Assembly (NCBI GenBank): GCA_030605565.1
Contig: JAUWIB010000101.1
Location: 1 to 52,485, forward strand
Direction of reading: 5' to 3'
DNA length: 52,485 bases
Source of the DNA: a bacterium
GTDB lineage: Bacteria; Zixibacteria; MSB-5A5; GN15; FEB-12
The notes under the pieces: generated by a model
The model's database searches: none
The model's input: only the letters and a program-made list of their open reading frames with translations
What the model was told of the DNA's origin: nothing
Part shown: in pieces, positions 6,219 to 47,596 of the stretch
Position numbering within the stretch: position 1 is the first letter of the stretch
How the letters are laid out: every line of letters begins with the position of its first letter
Program-made: the position numbers and the translations under genes

Positions 6219-8720
6219 CTACCCTTCCTGCGACTCTTCGACGAAAGAACTGTAACGCTCGATAAGGGTCTGGGTACTTTCCGCCGATGGCGACTCAGCC
6301 AGAATATTGAATGCAGCCGTCATGCGGTCAGGCGCCACCAGCACCCAGCCGTCATCCTCAAAGATCCGAACACCGTCGATTAGCTGGCGCTCCTTGTCGT
6401 CAGTACCGACGATCAGCTTGCGCATGACGGTTCCTTTCATCGACCACGGACACGGCACCGAGACAAATCGCCGGATGAGATATTCGTATTTCTTGCGTAG
6501 CGAACCAAGGCGTGTCTTGGTGGCGGCCATCATCTCCAACAGTTTCACGGCGGCAAGCATAGCATCGGCGCCCATCTGGAAACCGGGGAAAATAAAACCG
6601 CCGCGGGTGCCGCCGACAAAATCGACATCGCCTCGACCGTAGACCTCCATCATAGCCAGATGATCGTTGGCCACCCGAATCACCTCGACACCGTGCTCGG
6701 CTGCAATCTTCTCAACTCCCATCGAGGCCGCGACCGGCACCGCTATTTTCTTCGTTTCGTGAGTGGACAAAAAGAGGTCGGTTACGATCAAGAGCAGAAG
6801 ATGGCTGTCGACCGGCTGCCCCATTTCATCGACGGCGGTGAGCTTCTCGGCGGCGGAATTTAACAGAAAACCGACATCACAGTTGAGCGAAGTAACGATT
6901 GAAGACAGTTGCACAATTGCCTGACTGTGTTCCTCGGGCGAACTAGAGAACTTACGCGGATTCAGGTTGGCGTTCAACTCGATGGCTGAGATGCCAAGGT
7001 TGAAAAACAGAGTCGGAAAAATCTGGCTGGAGGAACCGTTAGAGTGGTCTACAACCAGCTTGAACCCGGCTTTTCTTATCACCTCGCTGTCGATATCGTT
7101 CATGAAATCGGTTCGATAATCCTCCTGAACCATCTGGGGCATTTCCAGATGTCCGATCGTATCCAGCGAGGCACGCTCAAACTCCTCCCCAAAATAGATG
7201 CGTTCGACCTTCTTTGTTTTGGAGGTCGGCAGATCCAGTCCTGAACCATCGAAGAATATGCAGTCGATCAGGCGATAGTCCTGCGGGTTGTGGCGGACAT
7301 AGATGCCGGCGGCAAAATCGCCCTTGCCCAGGCCGTGGCGAACCACCGGAATCGGAAGCATCTCAAGGTCGGACACATTGACACCCGCCGCCAACAGACC
7401 CGAGATGAGACCGCGTTTGAGAAGTCGCGAGGTGTCGGAAGCATCACGGCTGGTCACGACAGCACTGCCCGGTCCCACGAAAGCTCCGAAGGCGGCGCCG
7501 ATACGCACCAACATTTCCGGCGTGATTTCAACCAGCGCCAGCCCAGTTATCTTGGAATCGGTGAACAGTTCACGGTTCCACTTTTCCCCCCAGACCATCG
7601 ACGTAGAGACAATAGCGCCGGCATCAACAGTCTTGCCCGGCCAGATTTTGCAGTTGGCGCGCACCGTGGCGCCGTTGCCGATAGAGCAATCATCGGACAC
7701 GATGACCTCATCGAGGAGTTGCACATTCTGCCCGATCCGGGAATGGAAACCAACCACAGCGTTACTCATGTTCGTTTTACTGCCGACGACAGTGTCGTCC
7801 CACAATACTGAGTTGGTCAATGAGCACCCCGTCCCCACCCAACTGCGGTGTCCGATAACGCAGTTGCGCAGCTTCGTCCCGGGACCGATTGAGACATCAT
7901 TGCCGAGGATCACTTTGCCGTGTAGCTGTACACTGTCGCCTATCTGGACATTCTCGCCCCGGTACAAAGTCAAGTCATCACTTTCGTCGACCACCGTCTT
8001 GAGATCGAGATGCAAATTTCCATCGAACAAGTCAGCATGTACCCGTCGGTACTCTGCGACGTTACCGATATCCTTCCAGTAACCCTCCATGATCTTACCA
8101 AACAACCCCATTTCCCTCGACAGCATAAGCGGGAACAGGTTCTGCGCGAAATCGAAATTGGTACGGGGAGGAATGAGCCTGACAGCGTCCGGCTCAAGTA
8201 TGTAAATGCCGGTATTGATGGTATCGGAGAAGGCCTCACCCCAGGAGGGTTTCTCCAGAAAGCGAACAATCCGACCGTCGGAGTCGGTTATCACGATGCC
8301 ATACGCCAATGGGTTTTCCCTGCGCGTCAACAGCAGCGTCGCTTGCGATTGTTTTTCCCGGTGCCATGCGACCGCCTCGCCGAGATCGAAATCGGTAATG
8401 AGATCACCGGAAATAATCAACACCGGTCCGTCGGTCGATTCAAGAGCACACCGCACGGCGCCGGCGGTACCATAGTCATCATCCGGCTGGACGTAATCCA
8501 TGGTCACCCCGAAGGCACTGCCGTCGCCGAAATGGTTGCGGATATGTTCAGCCTGAAAATACACCAGCGATGTGATGTGATTGATACCGTGCTTTGCAAG
8601 AAGCGAAACAACATGCTCCATCATCGGCAGATTGCCGATTGGCGCCATCGGTTTCGGTATGTTTATCGTCAGCGGTCTCAGCCGGGTACCGAACCCACCG
8701 GCCATTATTATTGCTTTCAT
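6219..8720 (-). CDS. Sugar-phosphate nucleotidyltransferase / phosphomannomutase-like fusion (Mpg1 type)
   Basis: The 833-residue protein has three parts. Residues 1-230 are a nucleotidyltransferase ('MAGGFGTRLRPLT', 'KPMAPIGNLPMMEH'), probably a mannose-1-phosphate guanylyltransferase. Residues about 250-400 are left-handed beta-helix hexapeptide repeats ('GNDVSIGPGTKLRNCVIG'). The rest is a phosphohexomutase fold with the phosphoserine loop 'TSRDASDTSR'. The usual metal loop (DGDxDR) is replaced by 'GFLLNSAAEKLTAVDEMG', so mutase activity is doubtful. ATG 8720 has a 'ggag' site. It is last in the operon starting with tmk, 29 bases after the HAD gene. It may feed GDP-mannose to envelope glycans; the inositol-lipid locus nearby makes mannosylated lipids conceivable, which is inference. 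Confidence 0.88.
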   Translation of the reverse strand: MKAIIMAGGFGTRLRPLTINIPKPMAPIGNLPMMEHVVSLLAKHGINHITSLVYFQAEHIRNHFGDGSAFGVTMDYVQPDDDYGTAGAVRCALESTDGPVLIISGDLITDFDLGEAVAWHREKQSQATLLLTRRENPLAYGIVITDSDGRIVRFLEKPSWGEAFSDTINTGIYILEPDAVRLIPPRTNFDFAQNLFPLMLSREMGLFGKIMEGYWKDIGNVAEYRRVHADLFDGNLHLDLKTVVDESDDLTLYRGENVQIGDSVQLHGKVILGNDVSIGPGTKLRNCVIGHRSWVGTGCSLTNSVLWDDTVVGSKTNMSNAVVGFHSRIGQNVQLLDEVIVSDDCSIGNGATVRANCKIWPGKTVDAGAIVSTSMVWGEKWNRELFTDSKITGLALVEITPEMLVRIGAAFGAFVGPGSAVVTSRDASDTSRLLKRGLISGLLAAGVNVSDLEMLPIPVVRHGLGKGDFAAGIYVRHNPQDYRLIDCIFFDGSGLDLPTSKTKKVERIYFGEEFERASLDTIGHLEMPQMVQEDYRTDFMNDIDSEVIRKAGFKLVVDHSNGSSSQIFPTLFFNLGISAIELNANLNPRKFSSSPEEHSQAIVQLSSIVTSLNCDVGFLLNSAAEKLTAVDEMGQPVDSHLLLLIVTDLFLSTHETKKIAVPVAASMGVEKIAAEHGVEVIRVANDHLAMMEVYGRGDVDFVGGTRGGFIFPGFQMGADAMLAAVKLLEMMAATKTRLGSLRKKYEYLIRRFVSVPCPWSMKGTVMRKLIVGTDDKERQLIDGVRIFEDDGWVLVAPDRMTAAFNILAESPSAESTQTLIERYSSFVEESQEG

Positions 8721-39986: not shown

Positions 39987-42674
39987 TCAGTTCGCAGCTT
40001 CGCGGCCTTGATCCGAGACCAACGAGCGCACCTCCCAGTCGGGATGGTTCCTGAGGCATTCCACGTTTAGTTGTACCTGGGATGGGTCGGCACTGAGACG
40101 GTAGTAACCGAGCCGATTGTTTTCGATCACCGGCCAGTCGCACTTCAGGCCGGCGTTGATCTCATTTTTCATCCGGTAGAGATAGCGCGCCTGGTTGAAC
40201 CCGATCTCCAAATCCTCTTTGTAGATCCATCCGGACTCACTGTGCAGTCGCGACCAGGCCAGCTTGGCGAAATACTTGAATGACTTGCCGGTCAGCCGCA
40301 CCGGGAAACCATCGATCTTCACCAGGTACCGTTCACGCTCATAGCTGCCGTCGATCTCCACCGACCGCGGCGAGGTGACCAGCGGCGGACCTCCCTTCTG
40401 AACCGACTGGCTGACAGTTGCTACATCGTGATTCATATCGAACTCCTTTCCTATAGATTGCAATCTTTTATGAAGGCGCGCCAATTTCCGCTTCCCCTGG
40501 ATGACTTCTTTCAGTTCATCCTCTGAGAGTTTTCCGAGTTGCGGCACTGTTTCAATCCCCGCCTGTTGCAGCGAAGCGAAGTCGGTGCGGTTGAAAATCT
40601 GTCTGAAATGCCGATGCAACTCCTGCATCGAGACTGGTATCCCCCAGCGGAGACTGAAAGCCAACTCGCGCAACTTGCCGGCGAGCGGTGAGTCACGATC
40701 TTCCGCCTCGATCAGCGAGGTCAGCCCGCAGACCAGATGCGCAGCCGTGTCACCCAACGAAAGCATCTGACCGAGATGCATTTGGAACCGCTCTTCAAGT
40801 TGCTTCACCGGAGTCATCCGTCGCCACTGCTGAAGAAGCATCAACGCCTTCACCGTCGCCGCGACGCGATACGGCAGCGGTTCGCTCAATCGACACTCGC
40901 CCAGCAGAACCCCGGCCTCATCGACGGCATCATCGAAATGTTGATACAACATTCTCACCGGCGAAGCATTGACATGTTCCCATCGCGACAGCAGGCCGGG
41001 CGGCAATGCCCAACCCGGACTGGAGAGAGCCAGTGCGATCCATCCGAAATCACTATCGGGCCGGTCATCTTCAAGTCGCCGCCGAAAATGGACTGTCTGG
41101 GCCACCGATAACCCCGATACCGCCGATGCCTGGCCGACGGCAGTGACATTCAGGCGACCGCTTTCGTCGCATCGTATCAGTCCACTATCAATCAGGCTCT
41201 GCTGTACCGGCTCAAAGTCGACCGGAGCGGCACTCTCGGCGGTATAGAGAGTTTGCGCGAACAGTTTGTCGATCTCATCGCTGTCATGCGCCAGGCCGGA
41301 GGCGATCATATCCAGCAGCCAATCTTGCCAGGGCACAGTCGCCAGAGACGACTTGATCGGTTCCGGACGATCCGGTGCGATGTAGCTTTCCCAGAGGATA
41401 TCGCGGTCGAAATCGGTCTCAGCCAGCACCACGGCGCGACCGGGTCGATTCTGATCGGTCAAACCAAGCCGTCCGGTCATGTTGTCAAACTCCGAACGAC
41501 TCACCGGTACCAGGGTCGGTCCTCCGCCGTATTCACCCGAGGTGTACTTGACCGTTTCCAGATAAACGCTGTCGGCCGGCAGATTGATCCCCATCGCCAG
41601 CGTCGTAGTGGAAAAGACGACCTTGACTTTCTTATCCATGAAGGCCTGTTCGACGATAGTGCGCTGCCCCGGGGAAAGGTCCGAATTGTGAAAGGCCACC
41701 CCTCGGCTCAAGGCCTGCCTGAGCGAGCGAATGAGAAACGACGGTTCTTCCTCATCGAGCGTTTCCAGAGCGTGGCTTGCCGCCGGCCAGTTAACAGCCG
41801 CGGCCAGCCGGAAGGCGGCGTCAACCGTATCCCGTCGTGATTTTAGAAAAACCAGCGTCGAGCCATCGTCCGATTTCAGCCGGCGGATAAACCCAGCCAT
41901 CGGTTCATCGCCGATCTCGGTTTTCTCAAACGACTCGCTGCCGTCCAGTCCACTATTATAGAACCGGTAGCGAAACGATCCTTCCGCCGCCACCCCTCGG
42001 ATCAGGTCAACCGGACGGTTGGTTTCTTCGACCAGTTCGGCCTTCAGCCAATCGGCCAGGCGACCGGCCGAGGCAGCATCATCGCCGATCACAGCCGACA
42101 ACCCCAGGAGCGACGGTGTGTAGACCGAGGCAAGAATCTTGGTGAGCAGCCGCTCCAGAATCGCGCCCCGGCCCGGCTCGCCGACCGTCTGCAACTCATC
42201 CACCACTACCAGCCCGATATTTTTCAGAGTATCGAGCCGGGCGGTTAACAGCAGATCGAATTTTTCATAGATAGCCAGCGCCACCCGGTAGTTGCCCTCG
42301 GCGAATTTCTTGTCGTTTTCGGGATGGTCGGAGGTCACGGCCAGACAATCGATACCGAGTTGTCCCAGCGATTTTTGCAGGCTTTCGTATTTCTGTTCGG
42401 CCAATGATTTCAGGGGAAACAGCATGACTACGCGACGCCGCGCCATGAGTGCTTTCACCGCCGCCAACTCAGCGCAGAACGACTTGCCCGATGAGGTCGG
42501 CGCCGAAACGATCATGCGGATCGGCTCATACTCGCGGTTTGCATCGGCCGCTCCCAACAACCCGCGTCGCACGGCCCGACTCTGCACCGGCAGAAGCGAT
42601 TCTCCCTGCCGCTCACGCCAGAGGTCGATGATGCGGGAGGGTATTCCGAATTTCGCAAGGTCACTTAGTCGCAC
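39987..42674 (-). CDS. Ski2/Hel308-like superfamily 2 helicase with a C-terminal winged-helix domain
   Basis: About 895 residues. Motif I is 'SAPTSSGKSF', motif Ib/Ia 'LFPLKSLAEQKYESL', motif II 'VVVDELQTVG' (DELQ in place of DExH), motif V/VI 'TTTLAMGINLPADSV' and 'MTGRLGLTDQNRPGRAVVL'. A helix-hairpin-helix-like segment follows ('LQQAGIETVPQLGKLSEDEL'). The last 110 residues are set apart by a linker and look like an OmpR-type winged helix ('GFPVRLTGKSFKYFAKLAW', 'YLYRMKNEINAGL', 'IENNRLGYYRLS'). GTG 42674 is chosen because the frame upstream is repeat. It probably acts on DNA or RNA forks; the tail suggests sequence or structure recognition. Confidence 0.85.
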   Translation of the reverse strand: MRLSDLAKFGIPSRIIDLWRERQGESLLPVQSRAVRRGLLGAADANREYEPIRMIVSAPTSSGKSFCAELAAVKALMARRRVVMLFPLKSLAEQKYESLQKSLGQLGIDCLAVTSDHPENDKKFAEGNYRVALAIYEKFDLLLTARLDTLKNIGLVVVDELQTVGEPGRGAILERLLTKILASVYTPSLLGLSAVIGDDAASAGRLADWLKAELVEETNRPVDLIRGVAAEGSFRYRFYNSGLDGSESFEKTEIGDEPMAGFIRRLKSDDGSTLVFLKSRRDTVDAAFRLAAAVNWPAASHALETLDEEEPSFLIRSLRQALSRGVAFHNSDLSPGQRTIVEQAFMDKKVKVVFSTTTLAMGINLPADSVYLETVKYTSGEYGGGPTLVPVSRSEFDNMTGRLGLTDQNRPGRAVVLAETDFDRDILWESYIAPDRPEPIKSSLATVPWQDWLLDMIASGLAHDSDEIDKLFAQTLYTAESAAPVDFEPVQQSLIDSGLIRCDESGRLNVTAVGQASAVSGLSVAQTVHFRRRLEDDRPDSDFGWIALALSSPGWALPPGLLSRWEHVNASPVRMLYQHFDDAVDEAGVLLGECRLSEPLPYRVAATVKALMLLQQWRRMTPVKQLEERFQMHLGQMLSLGDTAAHLVCGLTSLIEAEDRDSPLAGKLRELAFSLRWGIPVSMQELHRHFRQIFNRTDFASLQQAGIETVPQLGKLSEDELKEVIQGKRKLARLHKRLQSIGKEFDMNHDVATVSQSVQKGGPPLVTSPRSVEIDGSYERERYLVKIDGFPVRLTGKSFKYFAKLAWSRLHSESGWIYKEDLEIGFNQARYLYRMKNEINAGLKCDWPVIENNRLGYYRLSADPSQVQLNVECLRNHPDWEVRSLVSDQGREAAN

Positions 42675-42701
42675 AGGTAAACCTGCCTTTCGCGGCGACA
42701 A

Positions 42702-43026
42702 CCCACCTGTCGCTTCGCTTTAGGTGGGGTACCGTTTTGAAACCCGGACGAACGTCCGGGCCACCCAGCCGCGCTTCGCGCGCTTTCTTGTGACGGAGTC
42801 ATAAAAACACCACTTATGTCACCCTGAGCACTTTCCATAACGTCACCCTGAGCGGAGTCGAAGGGCAACACCTGTTGTAGTGGCAACGTCATACCTCGAC
42901 TCCGCTCGGCATGACGTCAAGGGCGGCACCATCGCCGGGATGCTACCCTATGTCTCGCCCGGTTACCACTCTCTCTCCTTCCCTTCTTGAGAAGGGCGCG
43001 CGAAGCGCGAAAAACAGGCTTGCCTG
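42702..43026. repeat. 325-base repeat cluster
   Basis: Units: 'cccacctgtcgc...aggtggggtacc' (42703-42733), 'cccggacgaacgtccgggccacccagcc' core (42743-42770), 'gtcaccctgagcggagtcgaaggg' core (42844-42868) with a facing 'cgactccgctc' near 42898, and 'aaacaggcttgcctgtcaaac' core near 43013-43032. No gene. Confidence 0.75.
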
Positions 43027-43542: not shown

Positions 43543-44580
<1,038 letters not shown>

Positions 44581-45100
44581 TTCACCACCCCTCAGAATGG
44601 ATTGTGATTTGTCTTTCTTTACCGAAAGTATCCGGGCAAACGGAGGTATTGTCAAGGACTGAGTTTTCACCCACCCGGCGCTCCGCTCTGGGTGGGGTAC
44701 CGGTCAAGGGGCAGACGGGGACGTCTGCCGCCCACAGAATGAGATTGCCGCGGTCACGCGAAACGCGCGACCTCGCAATGACGATTTGTACTGGTCGGCG
44801 ACCTCGCAATGACGGCTTCTGGGGTTCATCAACAAGCCCGAACGTCCGGGCCACCCAGCCAGCGGGCCTTGCGGTCAATTCTGAAGATTCGACCGCAAGA
44901 CACTAGCCGTCGAGTTTTAAGAACCCTTTCTCATCGAATTACGTTATATTAGTGCCGGTGGATCTGCGACCTTCAGCGGTTGCTAATGAACGGGCATGCA
45001 GAGGTCCGATGATTACCGCTGCGGCGTAAGGTGCGGAACAACAAGGGATTACAGCCTGCCCTCAACGGCGGTTCAGGGAATGAAAGGATAGCCGATATCT
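44581..45100. repeat. 520-base gap with repeats upstream of lon
   Basis: From the left: 'cccacccggcg...gctctgggtggggtacc' (44671-44702), 'gggcagac-gggg-acgtctgccgccca' core (44709-44735), right halves of the 'cgtcattgcgag' family (44741-44783 and 44793-44814) and 'gaacgtccgggccacccagcc' (44842-44862). The remaining stretch to 45100 is unassigned lon leader; a 'ttatatta' near 44944 could be part of its promoter, but no matching -35 is seen. Confidence 0.75.
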
Positions 45101-47596
45101 ATGAAAATGGCATCAGATATACTAATCAAGAGCCGGTACCGAATACCCCTGGTGACAGAAGGCCCAACGGAGGACTTCCCGCTATTGCGTCTTCGGATGG
45201 CAGTGCTGTTTCCACTCAATCTGCTGACCATCCAGGTGCGACGCAAAGAAACCCTCCAATTGATCAGCGATTGTCACTCCAAGGAGCAGCAATTCGTTGC
45301 CTCATTCTCGCCCTACCCGGACGATGAGAACGAGCCGTCACCTGTCCATCGAATGGCTACTTTGGCCACAGTGCGCGACTGTCGCGAGGCGCCCGGCGGG
45401 TCGCTGCTGGTGACTATTGAAGGACTCAAGAGAATCGCCATAACCAAAGTCTCCGGCTCAGACGCCTATTCAACCGCAACCGTCCAGGATTTGGAACTGG
45501 ATAGCAGTGATCCCAAGAGCCATCGGGGACGGATGGATGCTGTCATCACTATGGTCGACGAAATCACGCGGCTCGACCCAAGCTACTCGGCCGAGTTGGT
45601 TTTTATTCTGAAAGCTATCGAGAACGATCCTTCCCTCCTGGCCGACCGGGTCGCCTCGTTCTTCCATTTCCCTCTGGCGTGGAAACAGGAACTTCTCGAG
45701 GCTGTCGATTTGCAACTCCGCTACGGTCTCATGTTAGGATACCTTGATCGGGTTCTGACACACGCCGGAGCTTTGCGCACAGTAAGCTATCAGGGGCGGT
45801 CGGATGGGCAACCCCGGCCGTTTATCCCCTGGCAGCCGGCGCGTGGGCAGCAGCCGTATCTTGAGCCTGACAACGGTCAGGCCGAGGAAGCGTTTCGCGT
45901 TCGGGAAGTGATCAGTAATTCTCCGCACCTGCCTCCGGAGGTGAAAGCGCGGGCTACTATCGAAGTTGACCGGCTGTCGCGGCTGTCGTCGGCCTCGGCT
46001 GAGTACGGTGTCACCAAAAACTATCTCGACTGGATTCTCGCCCTGCCGTGGGGGAAAGTCACCCCGGAGAATTACGAGATTCCCGAGGTCGAGCGAATCA
46101 TCAGCACCGACTACTTCGGCCCGACCAGCATCAAAGAGCAGATTCTACAACGACTGTCGGTGCGCAAGCTATCCGGCGGTATAGATGAAGGTCCGACCCT
46201 CTGTCTGGTCGGTGCGCCGGGAACCGGCAAAGCGTCGTTGGCCAAAGCGATTGCCCGTTCACTGGGCAAGGAGTTCATTCGTATCTCCGTCGGCGGTATT
46301 TCCGAAGTGTCCGAGATCAAGGGCATGCCGCGGACTTTTCTCGGCGCTCAGCCCGGCAAGATTGTCAGGGCGATGAAGGACGCAGGTTCGTGCGATCCGG
46401 TGATTCTGATCGAGGACATAGATTACTTCAATCTGGATAACAAATCCTCGGTCAACATGGCGCTGTTGGAAGCTGTTGACACGCGCTTCAACTCACGTTT
46501 CATAGACAGCTATCTGGGGGTGCCTTTTGATCTGAGTAAGGTGTTCTTTATCTGCTCGGTGCGCGCCTTCGAGGAAATCCCGGAGCAGTTCATTCCGCGC
46601 TTTGAACTAATGGAGATCCCCGGTTACATCGAGCGCGAGAAGATCGTCATCACCAAAAAATATATCATCCCTACCCTTCTCAAGAAGCATGGACTGCGCA
46701 AATCCGAGTTCAAGATTTCGGAGAAAACGCTGGCCTGCATCATTTCCAACTACACGCAAGAGGCCGGCTTGCTGGGCTTCTCGCAGCAGATCGAGAAAAT
46801 CTGCCGCAAGATGGCTTTGGAAAAAGCGCAGGGGAAGCGCAAATTCTGGACGATTAGCGAGAAAAGCCTCGAGTCGTTTCTCGGCTCGCCGGTGTTCATC
46901 CCGGAGAAGGCCGAAAAAGTTCCCGAGATCGGCACAGCCACCGGGCTGGCCTGGACCGGCGCCGGGGGGGATCTGATGTTTATCGAGGGGCTCAAGATGA
47001 AAGGGGAGGGGTCCATCACCACCACCGGGTCGCTGGGCGAGGTGATGAAAGAGTCGATCCAGGCGGCGCACTCCTACGTACGCTCCAAGTCCGATATGCT
47101 GGGGATCGATACTGCCGATTTCAATGAATTCGATATCCACATCCACTTTCCTTCCGGCGCGATTCCCAAGGATGGGCCCTCGGCCGGCGTGACGGTTTGT
47201 CTGGTGATTGCATCGGTGATGGCGGAGCGACCTATTCGCAATGACATAGCTATGACCGGTGAGGTCACGCTGCGTGGCAAAGTGCTGCCGGTAGGCGGTA
47301 CCAAAGAGAAAATATCGGCTGCCTATCGCGCCGGTATCTTCCACGTCGTACTGCCCAAGGAAAACCAAAAAGACCTCAAAGAGATCCCCAAAGAGATTCA
47401 GCGCAAAACGAAATTCACTTTTATCGAGCGCGTCGATGAGTTGTTCGAAATCTGTCTGCTGAATTTCACGCCGTCATCGCACACACTGGAGAAGCTTTTC
47501 GCCGAAGAGATCGAGAAGGCGAAGAAGAAGAAGTCAGCCAGGAAACCGGCCAAAAAGAAGAGCCGCCCCAAAGCCGCCAAACCGCGGAAGAAGTAG
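45101..47596 (+). CDS. Lon-family protease paralogue with eroded AAA+ motifs and a basic tail
   Basis: An 831-residue protein with the full Lon plan: LAN substrate domain (1-215), AAA+ (365-600) and S16 protease (610-790). The protease dyad is intact: Ser694 in 'KDGPSAGVT' and Lys735 in '[15 protein letters not shown]'. The ATPase is not. Walker A reads 'GAPGTGKAS' (Thr to Ala378). Walker B reads 'ILIEDIDYF' instead of LLDEIDK. Sensor 1 Asn is lost ('ICSVRAF'), and the sensor 2 Arg of 'AGVR' is Leu558 ('AGLLGFSQQ'). The Arg finger (R500) and pore aromatic ('RTFLG') remain. Residues 806-831 form a Lys/Arg tail ('[13 protein letters not shown]'). ATP-dependent unfolding may be weak or lost. ATG 45101 or 45107. 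Confidence 0.92.

Follow-up and report, generated by a model that had tools for sequence, protein, structure and literature searches.

Background

AAA+ proteases are textbook coupled machines. What, then, would be the role of a Lon protease that has kept its catalytic dyad and lost the residues with which Lon hydrolyses ATP? This question is raised by a gene on a contig of 52,485 nucleotides (JAUWIB010000101.1; the whole stretch that was analysed is referred to as the window) from a metagenome-assembled genome of Candidatus Zixiibacteriota. A preliminary description of the window, made from its letters, had proposed an ATP-binding but slow or non-hydrolysing Lon, and had named three forms that such a protein might take: an ATP-independent protease, an assembly partner of a normal Lon, or a DNA-bound enzyme.

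Known Lons provide reference points for this question. LonC is a hexameric protease that has no ATPase, binds six nucleotides and performs no ATP-powered unfolding (PMC3391209). In activated canonical Lon, formation of the peptidase site requires ATP binding, not hydrolysis (PMC11719849). Among the papers searched, none describes a LonA paralogue of the present kind, and none mentions both Zixibacteria and Lon protease.

Results

A full-length LonA with altered ATPase residues

The gene (45101..47596, + strand) is an open frame for a protein of 831 aa, the start of which may be a few codons off, and its product scores 638.5 bits against the TIGR00763 cut-off of 608. It follows the full LonA order of PF02190 N domain, AAA, Lon_lid and Lon_C, with the LON substrate-binding N domain at residues 27-217 (45179..45751, +; PF02190, E=6.6e-29) and the Lon_C protease domain at residues 585-786 (46853..47458, +; PF05362, E=9e-83). 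The closest solved relative is MtaLon of Meiothermus taiwanensis. A Foldseek search of the PDB with the AF2 model confirmed the LonA fold and nothing beyond; the model itself has a pTM of 0.42, a Ser loop of low confidence and a domain packing too uncertain for the conformational state to be read from it.

Seven ATPase residues were scored, namely Walker A Lys and Thr/Ser, Walker B Asp and Glu, sensor 1 Asn, the arginine finger and sensor 2 Arg, and five of the seven are replaced in the window Lon. Walker A (GAPGTGKA, residues 371-378; 46211..46234, +) keeps Lys377 and carries Ala378 in place of Thr, the Walker B pair is inverted to E438-D439 from the canonical D-E (46412..46417, +), sensor 1 Asn has become R488 (46562..46564, +) and sensor 2 Arg has become L558 (46772..46774, +). 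The arginine finger, R500 (46598..46600, +), is kept. The altered elements and the kept finger had been noted in the preliminary description, and all are borne out by alignment. Its statement that the pore aromatic remains is half right: pore loop 1 has F413 (46337..46339, +), where canonical Lons have Tyr, but the pore-loop-2 position (MtaLon W431) is N447 (46439..46441, +); an aromatic residue stands there in 44 of the 46 canonical Lons examined and in none of the 45 variants described below.

The catalytic serine was correctly recognised as Ser694, within PKDGPSAG (47180..47182, +), and is Ser in 91 of 91 Lons. The lysine had been placed at residue 735, which varies even in canonical Lons. 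Since serine and lysine stand 43 apart in both MtaLon (S678/K721) and E. coli Lon (S679/K722), the catalytic lysine is Lys737 (694+43; 47309..47311, +), and this residue is invariant in all 91 sequences.

The variant Lons form one clade beside canonical Lons

The source genome (G000; 3.39 Mb, 96% complete) encodes two canonical LonAs, on contigs C134 and C22, and the window Lon is thus a paralogue of two normal LonAs in the same genome. Both canonical proteins, about 34-38% identical to it, have every motif intact. Among 60 relatives down to order level an orthologue was found in nearly all (fragments counted); Walker A reads GKA in 50 of 50 extracted orthologues, and Walker B reads ED with a single exception (DD). 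A378, E438 and D439 are nearly fixed in the window order, and the set of losses varies by family across the clade.

A search of the phylum (132 genomes) with subsequent retrieval yielded more variant Lons in class-level families. In a tree built from 457 columns with the motif columns excluded, 45 variant Lons from 11 family-level groups form a single clade (SH-aLRT 100), separate from the Zixibacterial canonical Lons and from the Lons of other phyla; the tree is unrooted and took in no LonC sequence, and its natural reading is that the variants descend from an ATPase-competent Lon. For f8 and members of f14-f19 (f denoting a family) the best matches examined were canonical Lons, and f6 lay outside the survey of variant versus canonical Lons. 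The patterns of the genome-wide scan were biased to this clade, and dead LonAs may exist in other phyla.

One f12 genome (G102) encodes two dead Lons, L201 and L226, with the Walker B remnants EE and EG. The orthologue L061 (G002:C183) contains an in-frame TAG near residue 262, between the N domain and the AAA part, which may represent recent pseudogenisation, an assembly error or a division into two polypeptides.

ATPase residues are lost by different routes while the protease domain is kept

Each of the 45 variants lacks three to six of the seven ATPase residues; none of the seven is missing from any of the 46 canonical Lons. The losses follow more than one pattern. In f1-f5, f9 and f10 the Walker B Glu (replaced by Asp), sensor 1 and sensor 2 are lost, and the Walker A Lys and arginine finger are kept; in f12 and f13 it is the arginine finger that is lost, with Walker A and mostly sensor 2 kept; f7 and f11 combine losses of both kinds, arginine finger included, and in f7 the Walker A Lys has become Arg. 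The Walker B Glu is absent from 44 of the 45 variants. R500 is kept in the 35 variants of families whose Lon gene is linked to a helicase gene (see below), and lost in the other ten (f7, f11-f13). The pore-loop aromatic is missing at loop 1 in 13 of 45 variants and at loop 2 in all 45.

Residues that are invariant among canonical Lons have been lost in most variants at 28 of 68 positions of the AAA alpha/beta subdomain, against none of 43 in the protease domain (Fisher p = 7e-8). This contrast, and the recurrence of the motif changes in independently assembled genomes, put them well outside what chance or faulty sequencing could produce. The dyad S694 and K737 is invariant in 45 of 45 variants. 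Also invariant are E629 and L724, which correspond to MtaLon E613 and L708, positions where designed changes yield monomeric Lon.

The altered AAA domain is under purifying selection

Within the genus, the Nei-Gojobori method, with some comparisons near saturation, gives the AAA domain a dN/dS of 0.044-0.048. The values are 0.055-0.072 in the protease domain and 0.063-0.109 in the canonical Lons that these genomes also encode. Such low values for the AAA domain indicate that the dead module is constrained and needed. A378, E438 and D439 belong to the small share of AAA columns, about 14%, that show no variation in a 20-sequence alignment of the window order. A decaying pseudogene was rejected for the window gene, with an overall dN/dS of 0.07-0.08, and a sequencing or frame error was rejected on account of the same residues in dozens of independently assembled genomes together with low dN/dS.

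Terminal and linker regions

In canonical Lon a long N-terminal helix acts as scaffold and gate (PMC10643698). This helix, which includes the position of MtaLon Y224, has given way to unrelated sequence of low helix content in the window genus, a subgroup of f4 and f12. In the window Lon its place is taken by a degenerate linker, predicted to be disordered, at residues 228-258 (45782..45874, +); the same replacement is seen in L046, L049, L054, L056, L201, L226 and L229, and in at least three separate branches of dead Lons.

The C-terminal extension of the window Lon (47459..47593, +) comprises a helix, which AF2 places at 793-812 with low confidence beyond, and then a Lys/Arg tail of net charge +13. 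Across the variants the tails likewise consist of a short helix and a Lys/Arg-rich end, with net charges of +5 to +22 in untruncated rows. The strongly basic tail of the preliminary description is thus real, but basic ends are found on most canonical Lons of the phylum too, there without the helix extension. What is specific to the clade is the helix-containing extension that precedes the basic end. A deduction of DNA binding from the tail alone was set aside, the canonical Lons of the phylum being provided with basic tails too.

A Hel308-like helicase gene accompanies many of the variant Lons

At 41 of 53 loci with room for it, all in f1-f5, f9 and f10, a Hel308-like helicase of about 900 aa is encoded directly upstream on the same strand, and the gaps to the Lon gene, typically 50-330 nt, make co-transcription of the two genes plausible. 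In the window, the Hel308-like SF2 helicase (39987..42701, -) lies about 2.4 kb from the Lon gene on the opposite strand. The helicase is present in 123 of 132 genomes, some of them from families with no variant Lon detected, in which its neighbours differ; it is unlinked to the variant Lon in f7, f12 and f13, the latter two having other neighbours. Strict co-occurrence of helicase and dead Lon was rejected, as the helicase is the more widespread of the two.

Motif VI of the window helicase contains a 9-bp in-frame deletion between short repeats (GRAGRLG to GRLG), either a real lesion or an assembly collapse; GRAGR is intact in two related helicases that are about 95-96% identical to it. Between the window helicase and Lon lies a gene for a pentapeptide-repeat protein (43543-44670, -). 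Next to it, 34-nt direct repeats (42701-42734 and 44669-44702) abut both gene starts; repeats and pentapeptide-repeat gene are possibly the trace of a rearrangement that split a helicase-Lon pair.

Conserved downstream of the dead Lon in several families (L041-L073, L190-L197) are genes for a BACON-repeat protein and an M1 peptidase with dockerin, which is an odd neighbourhood for a cytoplasmic protease. Elsewhere in the window, 6219-8720 (-) encodes a fused nucleotidyltransferase, left-handed beta-helix and phosphoglucomutase-like protein. Membership of a defence system was rejected, the PADLOC matches being generic helicase hits or confined to the Lon_C domain.

Discussion

A protease that would work without its own motor

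We propose that the AAA+ module of this LonA paralogue would not hydrolyse ATP and would still build the ring-shaped protease chamber. Bound nucleotide would probably stabilise the chamber, and the Ser694-Lys737 sites would cut polypeptides that arrive unfolded or are brought by a partner, so that the dead AAA+ ring would serve as scaffold and gate, not as motor. That the window Lon is hydrolysis-dead is very probable and that it is an active protease is probable; the reading as a whole, a homo-oligomeric motor-less protease, we consider somewhat likelier to be right than wrong.

The suggestion of an ATP-binding but slow or non-hydrolysing Lon has thus gained strong support from sequence comparison, the ATPase residues having been lost clade-wide by different routes with the protease untouched. 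Nucleotide binding is suggested by the Walker A Lys (K377) and the arginine finger (R500, acting in trans) that the window lineage retains; this lineage appears to keep the residues for binding without those needed for hydrolysis and threading. As the parts that burn ATP and grip substrate are lost, the protein probably cuts without a motor of its own. The normal Lon role is filled by the two canonical Lons that this genome also encodes. The interface residues E629 and L724, together with purifying selection, point to a homo-oligomer. Among the forms first suggested, the ATP-independent protease is the one favoured, with LonC as its biochemical precedent (PMC3391209). Against the proposal, the invariance of R500 in the helicase-linked families could reflect action in trans on canonical Lon instead, and nucleotide binding may be gone in f7, given its Walker A Arg.

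The same arginine is also an argument for an assembly partner, in which dead subunits would enter mixed rings with canonical Lon, provide the arginine finger in trans and tune or inhibit its motor. R500 persists in all 35 helicase-linked-family variants despite their own broken ATP site, the window genome encodes canonical Lons as well, and truncated monomeric Lon mutants are able to join and inhibit a Lon pentamer (PMC10643698). However, loss of the arginine finger from the other ten variants, in four families of the same clade, weakens this suggestion; a mere regulator would have no need of a protease domain that keeps all 43 of the positions invariant in canonical Lons; and the two Lon types share only about 34-38% identity. 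We regard the assembly partner as unlikely. Retention of K377 and R500 would also suit a slow but real ATPase, an ordinary weak Lon in which the altered residues still support hydrolysis: the Glu and Asp of Walker B might in principle stand in for each other, and the AAA domain is strongly constrained. Yet T378, both sensors, the Walker B pair and the pore-loop-2 aromatic have changed together, and different residues are lost in other branches, which leaves this alternative with very little probability. A non-proteolytic chaperone or scaffold, whose protease residues are merely not yet lost, seems extremely improbable beside a dyad present in 45 of 45 variants and a protease domain in which, across the divergence of a phylum, none of the 43 positions has been lost from most variants.

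The proposed DNA-bound enzyme is poorly served by the basic tail, which canonical Zixibacterial Lons share, and the link to the Hel308-like helicase gene provides better support. A helicase-coupled protease would have the Hel308-like motor remodel nucleoprotein or unfold a DNA-bound protein that the tail-held Lon then cuts. Helicase-assisted proteolysis of DNA-bound protein occurs elsewhere, with SPRTN and FANCJ, and the upstream same-strand position at 41 of 53 loci, the Hel308 type of the neighbour, the strongly basic Lon tail and its conserved helix all accord with it. Against such coupling, the helicase is phylum-wide, extending to families without a detected variant Lon, and its gene does not adjoin the Lon gene in f7, f12 and f13; genes for secreted proteins are likewise conserved downstream; basic tails are no peculiarity of the variants; and the window helicase has a broken motif VI and lies on the other strand. 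Coupling of this kind we likewise regard as unlikely. Its boldest form is a two-gene machine in which the helicase would spend ATP on nucleoprotein and a motor-less LonA, tethered through its C-terminal extension, would cut whatever this exposes. That form is slightly less likely still; if true, it would amount to a pairing of helicase and protease in bacteria, brought about by a Lon giving up its own motor.

Significance

If the proposal of a motor-less protease is right, evolution has stripped a full-length LonA of its motor and kept the N domain, the AAA+ scaffold and the protease. The clade offers a graded series of partial losses, of three to six residues along two or more routes. With such a series one can test which ATPase elements a Lon is able to do without, and the order in which they may go. 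Also open to test are whether nucleotide binding alone gates the Lon protease site and whether ATP-independent Lons have arisen more than once, in LonC and in this clade. For annotation, the variants pass the TIGR00763 model 'endopeptidase La' and will be miscalled ATP-dependent.

Relation to known systems

The window Lon shares with LonA (MtaLon, E. coli Lon) the order of N domain, 3H, AAA+ module, lid and protease domain, as well as the invariant oligomer-interface residues. LonA is characterised by Pro before the catalytic Ser and 42 residues between Ser and Lys (PMC9569914), and the window Lon has P693-S694, K737 and this spacing; the endopeptidase La equivalog cut-off is passed only barely. 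It differs from LonA in the Walker A Thr, Walker B D-E, sensor 1, sensor 2 and pore-loop-2 aromatic that it lacks, in the added C-terminal helix and basic extension, and in the scaffold helix lost from the window genus.

Other systems match in part. LonB, with no LonA N domain, Asp before Ser and membrane segments in the AAA+ module, is not matched by a protein with an N domain and Pro. BrxL, the Lon-like protein of BREX defence, shares a Lon-type C-terminal domain (PADLOC, 1.6e-15), but the match is confined to residues 625-778 and the N-terminal architecture is that of LonA. The neighbouring helicase has SF2 motifs and an NCBIfam match to Hel308-type models, as in Hel308/Ski2-like DNA helicases, but falls far under the equivalog cut-offs and stands apart as a phylum-wide helicase whose C-terminal extension, judged by eye, resembles a winged helix.

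The closest functional parallel is LonC (MtaLonC, TTC1975), the known ATP-independent Lon, which likewise combines a degenerate AAA+ module with an intact Ser-Lys dyad and probably has the same working mode, a hexamer with nucleotide binding and no hydrolysis. LonC, however, lacks the LonA N domain, present here as PF02190, and has Asp before Ser, where Pro693 stands here and Pro in 45 of 45 variants. Given the LonA domain content, Pro693 and relatedness to LonAs in a tree that took in no LonC sequence, the motor loss appears independent of LonC. The window Lon is a LonA by content and descent that departs from the ATPase definition of LonA, with five of the seven residues replaced, and it would work in the manner of LonC without the N-terminal organisation of LonC or its Asp.
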